NCBI GenBank assembly: GCA_947455255.1
Contig: CANGOA010000009.1
Coordinates: 1-38,335, forward strand
Reading direction: 5' to 3'
From: Flavobacteriia bacterium
GTDB lineage: Bacteria; Bacteroidota; Bacteroidia; Flavobacteriales_D; Crocinitomicaceae
Length of the DNA: 38,335 bases
The translations under genes and the position numbers were made by a program. Under the pieces are notes generated by a model that saw only the letters and a program-made list of their open reading frames with translations, had not been told where the DNA came from and searched no databases. Of the stretch, positions 18,906-20,786 are shown piece after piece; position 1 is the stretch's first letter, and every line of letters begins with the position of its first letter.

Positions 18906-19006
18906 AAATAAAAAAGGAAACTACAGATTTTACTGATTAAACGAACGAACACATGATAAATTGTATGTAAAACAAGCGAAAGAAAACAATTCTAGTGTTA
19001 GAACCT

Positions 19007-19014
19007 TATATTTG
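19007..19014 (+). promoter_or_regulatory. Candidate -7 box of the PP2C phosphatase gene
   Basis: TATATTTG matches TAnnTTTG fully and lies 29 bases before the GTG start at 19044. Together with the minus-strand box at 18898-18905 it makes a divergent promoter region. Confidence 0.5.
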
Positions 19015-19043
19015 TGTAAGCTTAACTACGTAATTATAGAACT

Positions 19044-20045
19044 GTGAATCAAGAAAATTTATCTGAAAACAATTTGTTTAATCACATTATTTCACCAATT
19101 ATTCAATCACTGAAAGATTCTGAAGAAAATAAACAAACGATTCCTACAACAATTATTCAAGAACATAGTTTAGTATTTCAAGACCCATTATTTTGGGAAA
19201 ATTTTAAAAATCATATCATTCTAGAGTTTGCGAATGATATGATTGAGCAGAAAAAAGAATTAATAAATAAAAACCAACAAATAACAGATAGTATAAAGTA
19301 CGCACAAACCATTCAAAAGGCTATTTTAACATCTCATGAATACTTTACATCTGTATTTTCTGATCATTTTGTGTATTACCAACCAAAAGATATTGTAAGT
19401 GGAGATTTCTATTGGGCGTTTAAAACAAAAACAGATAAAATATATTGGTGTACTGCTGATTGTACAGGTCATGGTGTTCCTGGGGCATTCATGACTATGA
19501 TAGGAAATTCCTTGTTGAATGAAATCATCATTGAAAATGAGGTCGAAGAAACAAATATAATTCTTGACAAATTACGTGAATCAGTCATCAAAACACTAAA
19601 TAAATCAGTGGATGTTACATCTATTGCTGATCGTAATAGCAATGGGATGGATATCGCTTTGTGTTGTTGGGATTTAAATACAAATGAGCTAACATTTTCT
19701 GGGGCACATAGTTCGGTGATCATTATTCGTGCTGGAGAAATGATACAAATTAAAGGGGATAGACAACCAATAGGTTTACACCGTAAAATGGAGCCATTTA
19801 ACCAAGAAACCTTTCAATTGGAACATGGAGATCGTTTGTATACCTCAAGTGATGGATATACGGATCAATTAGGAGGTGAAGAGACAAAACGTTACTCTTT
19901 TACGCGCTTAAAAAGTCTACTGTTAGAAATCGCATTATTACCTATGGAAAAACAAAAAGAATCATTGGCAAAACATCATCAAGCTTGGAAAGGGGAAATC
20001 GATCAAATTGATGATATCGTAGTTGTAGGAATATTAGTAGGTTAA
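19044..20045 (+). CDS. SpoIIE-type PP2C serine/threonine phosphatase
   Basis: A 333-residue soluble protein. An N-terminal part of about 75 residues is followed by a helix (KNQQITDSIKYAQTIQKAIL) seen in many Bacteroidota SpoIIE phosphatases, then the PP2C/SpoIIE domain from about 100 to the end. Metal-binding acidic residues are in VSGDFYW (Asp121), ADCTGHGVPGAFMTMIGNSLL (Asp139), SSDGYTDQ (Asp270) and the terminal QIDDIVVVGI. All look intact. There is no sensory, response-regulator or membrane domain. The start is GTG at 19044. The gene converges on a SiaC-like gene 23 bases downstream. SiaA of Pseudomonas, the phosphatase that dephosphorylates SiaC, belongs to this class, so SiaC is the likely substrate. 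Confidence 0.92.
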   Translation: MNQENLSENNLFNHIISPIIQSLKDSEENKQTIPTTIIQEHSLVFQDPLFWENFKNHIILEFANDMIEQKKELINKNQQITDSIKYAQTIQKAILTSHEYFTSVFSDHFVYYQPKDIVSGDFYWAFKTKTDKIYWCTADCTGHGVPGAFMTMIGNSLLNEIIIENEVEETNIILDKLRESVIKTLNKSVDVTSIADRNSNGMDIALCCWDLNTNELTFSGAHSSVIIIRAGEMIQIKGDRQPIGLHRKMEPFNQETFQLEHGDRLYTSSDGYTDQLGGEETKRYSFTRLKSLLLEIALLPMEKQKESLAKHHQAWKGEIDQIDDIVVVGILVG

Positions 20046-20068
20046 GCGAATAAATTTCAGAAGTTCCT

Positions 20069-20443
20069 TTAAATAGCTTTTAATTCACCAGAAATTGAAA
20101 CTAAATCAAACAATTCTACTCCTGCCTCTCTCATATCTTCATCTTCTGATTGATAGTGCCAGATTACATGAACTTTTGTTTCATTTTCATTGAAATTTTC
20201 AAAAAATTCAAATAAATCAAGTAAGACTTTACTAGTGGAGGTATTAAAATAATCCAACGCTATACTAAGAGTTAACTTATTCCCTGATTGTTTAAGGTAA
20301 CTTTCAAACCAATTAAAAATAGGCTTAAAAAAAGCTAATGGATTCTCTGGACGAGAATTACCACGCAAAATAAACTCATTCGTTGTTGGATTTAAAACAA
20401 CATGAGGTGTCATAAAAGTCCCTTCTATTTCTAATACTTCCAT
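20069..20443 (-). CDS. SiaC family regulatory phosphoprotein (DUF1987)
   Basis: A 124-residue cytoplasmic protein. RGNSRPENPLAFFKPIFNWF at 27-46 is the family signature (RGxSxPExxxxF(Y/F)xPxxxWF). LDYFNTSTSKVLLDLF at 63-78 is the phosphorylation segment, and Thr68 falls at the very residue number reported as phosphorylated in Pseudomonas SiaC. Known SiaC switches between a phosphorylated form (kinase SiaB) and a free form (phosphatase SiaA) that activates the diguanylate cyclase SiaD. Here only a SiaA-type phosphatase is next to it; no SiaB or GGDEF gene is in the window, so the downstream partner is unknown. Confidence 0.9.
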   Translation of the reverse strand: MEVLEIEGTFMTPHVVLNPTTNEFILRGNSRPENPLAFFKPIFNWFESYLKQSGNKLTLSIALDYFNTSTSKVLLDLFEFFENFNENETKVHVIWHYQSEDEDMREAGVELFDLVSISGELKAI

Positions 20444-20447
20444 TCTT

Positions 20448-20455
20448 TAAAGATA
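20448..20455 (-). promoter_or_regulatory. Possible -7 box very close to the siaC-like start
   Basis: On the minus strand TATCTTTA matches TAnnTTTG in seven of eight positions and ends 4 bases before the ATG. If used, the mRNA would start at or next to the start codon. No -33 TTG is seen. Confidence 0.3.
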
Positions 20456-20576
20456 CGAAAAATTAAAATTGTGTATTAAATTGATTTAGAATTTATTTTT
20501 TTTCTGGCTAATTCACCAACAATTAATAAATTTATTAACTTTACAGCAATTATTATTGACAATAAAACAACATCAA

Positions 20577-20735
20577 ATGAATATTCTAGGAATTGTAACA
20601 TTTTTCTTAATCGCTGGAATGGCGTTTTGGGTACTTTTATTTTTATTAGGATTTGTACTTCCTTTCTGGATTACATTAGGTGTTTTCGATAAATTACGTC
20701 CTAAAAGAGTTTTTGAAGAAGAAGAAACTGAATAG
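20577..20735 (+). CDS. 52-residue single-pass membrane protein
   Basis: A short frame from ATG 20577 to TAG 20733-20735. It encodes MNILGIVTFFLIAGMAFWVL, one long hydrophobic stretch continuing to about residue 36, then a basic segment (DKLRPKR) and an acidic tail (VFEEEETE). Signs that it is real: it fills its own intergenic space, has a plausible AT-rich upstream region, ends shortly before a strong terminator, and shows the positive-inside charge pattern of a membrane peptide. No known family. It could be a small modulator of a membrane complex, but nothing here says which. Confidence 0.6.
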   Translation: MNILGIVTFFLIAGMAFWVLLFLLGFVLPFWITLGVFDKLRPKRVFEEEETE

Positions 20736-20758: not shown

Positions 20759-20786
20759 AAAAAGACCGGAATATTCCGGTCTTTTT
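20759..20786. terminator. Bidirectional Rho-independent terminator
   Basis: Stem gaccgga (20764-20770) / tccggtc (20775-20781) with an ATAT loop, flanked by aaaaa and tttttt. It lies between the 52-residue membrane gene (plus) and the DinB gene (minus), and the symmetrical A/T runs serve both directions. Confidence 0.92.

Follow-up and report, generated by a model that had tools for sequence, protein, structure and literature searches.

A SiaA-like phosphatase and SiaC gene pair without a neighbouring SiaB kinase in a freshwater Bacteroidota bacterium

The SiaABCD system of Pseudomonas aeruginosa comprises the phosphatase SiaA, the kinase SiaB, the phosphoprotein SiaC and the diguanylate cyclase SiaD. 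In Pseudomonas, T68 of SiaC is phosphorylated by SiaB and dephosphorylated by SiaA (PMC7647112, PMC8457831), while Y65, N67, T68 and S69 of SiaC contact SiaD (PMC8457831). In the literature searched, with subscription journals mostly outside its range, SiaABC proteins are described only via the c-di-GMP cyclase in Pseudomonas, the name DUF1987 occurs only in the Pseudomonas paper, and the terms 'DUF6272', 'SiaB family' and 'SiaC family regulatory' are not used.

The gene pair described here lies in a stretch of 38,335 nucleotides (the window), which is the entire contig C9 of a freshwater Bacteroidota genome, G000 (3.04 Mb in 212 contigs, estimated to be 76.85% complete). A sequence-only reading of the window had pointed to a SpoIIE phosphatase gene convergent with a SiaC homologue. 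Both open reading frames are present as described, with their stops 23 bp apart, and both products exceed the Pfam cut-offs of their families (PF07228 and PF09345). The features of the locus are as follows:

19044..20045, forward strand: SpoIIE/PP2C-type phosphatase, SiaA-like and cytosolic, GTG start, 333 aa
20069..20443, reverse strand: SiaC homologue of 124 aa with Thr68 in YFNTSTSK
19044..19223, forward strand: fast-evolving N-terminal segment of the phosphatase (residues 1-60), followed by an extended predicted helix and then the phosphatase domain
18922..20493, no strand: two-gene unit including both upstream regions, from empty-site alignments
19007..19014, forward strand: TATATTTG, candidate -7 promoter motif ~30 bp ahead of the GTG start of the phosphatase gene

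The gene pair and its products

Upstream of the phosphatase gene, TATATTTG matches TAnnTTTG, which we take to be the -7 promoter motif of Bacteroidota, and both the motif and the leader 3' of it are conserved in G004 and G009, the two other genomes carrying the pair. The two reading frames are directly adjacent in G004 and share 4 bp in G009. Adjoining the site is a small open reading frame (window 20578-20735, ~52 aa) whose product contains a hydrophobic stretch. It is conserved in relatives without the pair, and a perfect hairpin with a T run comes after it (20759-20786). Neither SiaB nor GGDEF was found by profile search among the other window genes scanned, as the sequence-only reading had maintained.

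The phosphatase matches Pfam SpoIIE PF07228 with an E-value of 6.9e-20. Its best NCBIfam match is the SiaA model (equivalog NF038263), reached with 188.4 bits and thus below the cut-off of 700. Residues 62-329 align with the SiaA-PP2C structure in the PDB (6k4e, E 4.7e-33), which is also the best structural match of the AlphaFold model (target-normalised TM 0.80, with a mean pLDDT of only 71). The metal-site residues D121, D139, G142, D270, G271 and the pair D323-D324 are all in place and match the active-site list given for SiaA, i.e. D457, D474, G477, D600, G601 and D653 (PMC7647112). Equivalents of SiaA E609 and R618 are kept as well, and the position of R652, the proposed phosphate holder of SiaA, is occupied by Ile.

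For the SiaC homologue, Pfam PF09345 is matched with an E-value of 5.6e-35 (120.1 bits, cut-off 24.5). Here, too, the best NCBIfam match is the SiaC model, although the score of 85.3 bits remains below the cut-off of 150 of the biofilm-control equivalog NF038265. Since both scores lie below the equivalog cut-offs, the two proteins are, as judged from their profile scores, members of the SiaA and SiaC families but not equivalogs of their counterparts in Pseudomonas. Residues 3-111 align with Pseudomonas SiaC (6kko/7e6g, E 3e-13), and the AlphaFold model (pLDDT 91.7) superimposes on 7e6g_D with a TM of 0.93 and an rmsd of 1.4 (Foldseek E 2.4e-10); apart from SiaC crystal structures (TM ~0.9), Foldseek returned nothing at comparable confidence. 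T68 aligns with the T68 loop of the Pseudomonas protein, as had been proposed, and is placed by the model at the start of helix 2 (residues 68-85). The motif GNSRPEN is present and all four SiaD-contacting residues (Y65, N67, T68, S69) are kept, while the pocket positions I71 and L107 of Pseudomonas SiaC are Ser and Ala, respectively. Across the three carrier species the phosphosite loop YFNTSTSKVLLD is identical.

The sequence-only reading had further stated that the phosphatase has lost any membrane or HAMP sensor. Its lack stands, with no HAMP match in the profile search and no membrane helix found (maximum 19-residue hydropathy 1.25). The loss was an inference, and the short form probably goes back to an older lineage and is no fresh truncation, because a solitary relative of 356 aa shares both the short architecture and the N-terminal segment. 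This cytosolic SpoIIE protein, the closest short relative of the window phosphatase, is encoded in the metagenome-assembled genome G059 (L186, CAMDMY010000011.1, 5800-6870), with neither SiaB nor SiaC found within 6 kb. A strong hydrophobic stretch ahead of the phosphatase domain is present in the long relatives and missing from the short proteins. Recent truncation of a sensor phosphatase of about 1050 aa is not favoured, given the DPxFW N-terminal segment common to the window phosphatase and L186 and the grouping of the short forms in the tree at 88/74, where alternatives were not rejected (p-AU 0.12 and 0.15). Residues 1-60 of the phosphatase show only 52-65% identity between species versus 88-93% for residues 111-333; a helix spans residues 48-104 in the AlphaFold model (mean pLDDT 71).

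Relatives and origin of the pair

In SiaC trees, the window protein and its G004 and G009 copies fall into one clade (100/100 support) with SiaB-linked SiaC proteins, all its other members being encoded next to a separate kind of SiaB, termed type-2. One tree places the window SiaC nested inside this type-2 clade (88/92), which would point to a loss of SiaB within it; the other trees do not resolve whether the window SiaC is nested in or sister to the SiaB-linked set. Descent from the second, operon-encoded SiaC of the same genome was rejected (p-AU 0.0005). Within the genus, the closest homologues are encoded directly downstream of the divergent type-2 SiaB in G002, G003, G006, G008 and G011, where a SpoIIE gene converges on SiaB-SiaC just as the window SpoIIE gene does on SiaC. 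The SpoIIE proteins of these loci have 1049-1061 aa where the contig is complete, and Reg_prop and Y_Y_Y domains were identified in both long genus proteins scanned. The Fluviicola genome L190 has the same three genes, but there SpoIIE is divergent from SiaB-SiaC. In G059, a SiaC of the window clade lies beside a type-2 SiaB on a different contig from the solitary short SpoIIE gene.

The pair occupies the same place in G000, G004 and G009, whereas in G001, G008 and G010 the flanks are joined by ~50-80 bp instead of ~1.57 kb; G005 contigs break near the site. The two genes hence come and go together, be it by gain in one lineage or by loss in the others. Insertion by a mobile element was discarded, as neither flanking repeats nor a transposase or mobile-element gene was seen at the pair, and composition gives no sign of foreign origin (pair GC 0.307 versus 0.328, at about the 26th percentile of same-size windows).

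How ordinary such an arrangement is was seen in a survey of 59 genomes, G000 included. SiaC occurs in 52/59 and SiaB in 53/59 of them, while any GGDEF match was obtained in 5/59 (2 over the cut-off). SiaB and SiaC without a diguanylate cyclase are thus ordinary in the order and no peculiarity of the window locus. Among the matches listed, 80 of 150 SiaC genes are without SiaB and 48/125 SiaB genes without SiaC within 3 kb, some of these orphans being located at contig ends. SpoIIE lies within 3 kb in only 5/67 fetched orphan SiaC loci, and the pair as carried by G004 and G009 accounts for two of these five. By these profile matches, orphan SiaC is common in the order and SpoIIE with SiaC but without SiaB is rare. 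A more distant example of the same layout is found in G015 (L271, 2175-4444), where a 632-aa SpoIIE gene converges with SiaC with overlapping stop codons; no SiaB was found within the fetched stretch. In some relatives (G015, G019, G034, G048) each genome harbours between 8 and 13 copies of SiaC, and two tandem DUF6272 domains are encoded by several SiaB genes of relatives (ORFs of ~351-395 aa).

Kinase, output and selection

Profile search of the G000 contigs, which represent 77% of the genome, gave a single SiaB gene (C25:8058-8678), two SiaC and six SpoIIE genes. The SiaB gene is preceded by two SpoIIE genes and followed by the second SiaC, in a run that begins with an MCP fragment, CheR, a histidine-kinase-like protein, CheD, CheB and a CheY-like receiver, continues with a CheC-like protein of 205 aa (no Pfam match), a receiver, SpoIIE, SpoIIE, SiaB and SiaC, and ends with a TerB-domain ABC transporter and a PKD protein of 2219 aa that carries a type IX secretion signal. 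Judging from this layout, the Sia switch encoded there may be linked to chemotaxis and to a surface protein. Much of the gene order of the run (L010, 1-18962) is kept in G001, G002, G007, G008 and G010. GGDEF was found neither in G000 (77% complete) nor in any of 13 genus genomes, in line with the earlier suggestion that the output is unlikely to be c-di-GMP. Of the SiaB/GGDEF locus that the sequence-only reading had set against its own proposal, only the SiaB part, with SpoIIE and SiaC genes of its own, was therefore found.

The kinase search, covering the SiaB family, detected no type-2 SiaB in the carriers G000, G004 and G009 (77, 92 and 86% complete). G004 and G009 each have an additional, orphan SiaB that belongs to the operon type and has intact motifs, situated between rnc and the pyruvate kinase gene (L097, 9509-10099 on G004:C1; L098, 2212-2802 on G009:C71), a site which is empty in G000 and G001. 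A related orphan SiaB is present at a different site in G005. In the tree, these orphans fall near the operon SiaB and apart from the well-supported type-2 clade.

The reading that we prefer, and to which we would give an even chance, is that the pair constitutes the SiaA/SiaC half of a SiaABC-type switch, i.e. phosphatase and phosphoprotein, whose cognate SiaB kinase has been lost. The unlinked candidate SiaB of the chemotaxis operon would then phosphorylate the window SiaC in trans at Thr68, with the orphan operon-type SiaB perhaps contributing in G004 and G009, and the soluble SiaA-like phosphatase would remove the phosphate. Unphosphorylated SiaC would bind and activate a target that is neither a GGDEF cyclase nor encoded nearby. 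The choice offered earlier between a kinase elsewhere and a self-contained two-part switch thereby tips towards the former, because C25 encodes a SiaB that is accompanied by SpoIIE and SiaC genes of its own. Taken together, the window phosphatase probably resets the window SiaC, the kinase that charges the switch is probably encoded elsewhere, and the output is probably something other than c-di-GMP.

Three substitutions (R652 to Ile, I71 to Ser and L107 to Ala), as read from the alignments, count against the preferred reading. Against phosphorylation in trans in particular, G000 has no SiaB at the orphan site, so that the only kinase seen has a SiaC partner of its own. With the assembly 77% complete, a second SiaB may also be missing from the data, which likewise counts against this reading. 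Recognition of the window SiaC by either SiaB is putative. A precedent for the sharing of a kinase is provided by Chlamydia, with two RsbV but one RsbW homologue (PMC8256260). In Bacillus, phosphatases of this kind owe their specificity to docking loops, and cross-talk is harmful (PMC11418112); kinase sharing is therefore not to be assumed. A rewired arrangement, in which the chemotaxis-operon kinase would charge two SiaC proteins, each with its own phosphatase and with separate outputs other than c-di-GMP, is put forward tentatively and is on the improbable side.

Alternatively, a cognate or additional SiaB could reside in the unassembled part of the genome, making the pair part of an ordinary three-part SiaABC switch with dispersed genes. 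The incompleteness of the assembly (76.85%) leaves room for this, G059 with its solitary short SpoIIE and a SiaB-SiaC pair on another contig exemplifies it, and the extra operon-type SiaB genes of G004, G009 and G005 at unlinked sites fit as well. Yet type-2 SiaB was found in none of the three carriers, so that a separate assembly gap would have to be assumed for each, and G000 lacks the orphan SiaB at its site; such a dispersed switch appears doubtful.

Purifying selection acts on both genes of the pair, as shown by pairwise Nei-Gojobori comparison of G000, G004 and G009, with dN/dS of 0.07-0.10 for SpoIIE and 0.03-0.18 for SiaC (~0.15-0.18 for G000 versus the other carriers). Because dS is high between G000 and the other carriers, pN/pS is the safer figure; it amounts to 0.15-0.16 for the window SpoIIE between species and to ~0.34 for the window SiaC between G000 and the other carriers, whereas the operon SiaC gives 0.05 in the same G000 comparisons. 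Relative to synonymous change, the window SiaC hence evolves about five to seven times faster than the operon SiaC, and its identity between G000 and the other carriers is 61-63% versus 95-96%. Constraint on the window SiaC is thus weaker or shifted. The low dN/dS, the identical phosphosite loop and the conserved sequence upstream of SpoIIE favour a function of the pair.

The faster evolution of the window SiaC would also fit slow decay. That the pair is a decaying remnant heading for loss, with the kinase already gone and SiaC diverging as described, is nevertheless very unlikely: neither stop codons nor frameshifts were found in the pair genes across the three carrier species, the leader on the promoter side is conserved and dN/dS stays low (~0.07-0.10 for SpoIIE, no more than 0.18 for SiaC). 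Somewhat less remote, but still unlikely, is a window SiaC that is never phosphorylated and always active, the phosphatase acting on other substrates or guarding against stray phosphorylation. The missing cognate kinase and the looser SiaC constraint would agree with this, as would the short SpoIIE of G059, which has no adjacent SiaC and indicates that this type of phosphatase can work apart. It is difficult to reconcile with a Thr68 and whole phosphosite loop unchanged in three species, an intact SpoIIE active site and two genes that are present or absent together.

Comparison with known systems

The locus is of moderate importance, mainly since intermediate arrangements are preserved in close relatives. 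Three-gene, dispersed and kinase-less versions of the switch occur side by side among them and offer a way to study the evolution of kinase sharing. In the sampled Flavobacteriales genomes SiaB and SiaC are nearly universal and GGDEF is nearly absent; the lineage also lets one ask what SiaC controls without c-di-GMP.

The closest described system is SiaABCD of P. aeruginosa, with which the pair has in common the SiaC fold, Thr68 and its loop, and the SiaA-type PP2C active site. Unlike that system, the locus is without SiaB, no GGDEF was found in G000, and the genes are convergent and form no operon; unlike SiaA, the phosphatase is without a membrane or HAMP region and has Ile in place of R652. 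The type-2 loci (G002, G003, G006, G008, G011, L190) provide the closest SiaC relatives (48-56% identity), a related phosphatase domain (53-56%) and, within the genus, the convergent layout. They differ in keeping SiaB and in a complete phosphatase of 1047-1061 aa with a membrane stretch, the two genus proteins scanned carrying propeller and Y_Y_Y domains. The SpoIIE-SpoIIE-SiaB-SiaC operon on C25 is built from the same gene families, likewise with no GGDEF, but has its own kinase, SiaC and SiaB of different clades, and the adjoining ABC transporter and T9SS-type PKD protein. Finally, the combination of a PP2C phosphatase, an ATPase-fold kinase and a STAS-like phosphoprotein recalls the partner switches RsbU/RsbW/RsbV and SpoIIE/SpoIIAB/SpoIIAA; in contrast to these, no link to a sigma factor is seen here and the substrate is of the SiaC type (PF09345).
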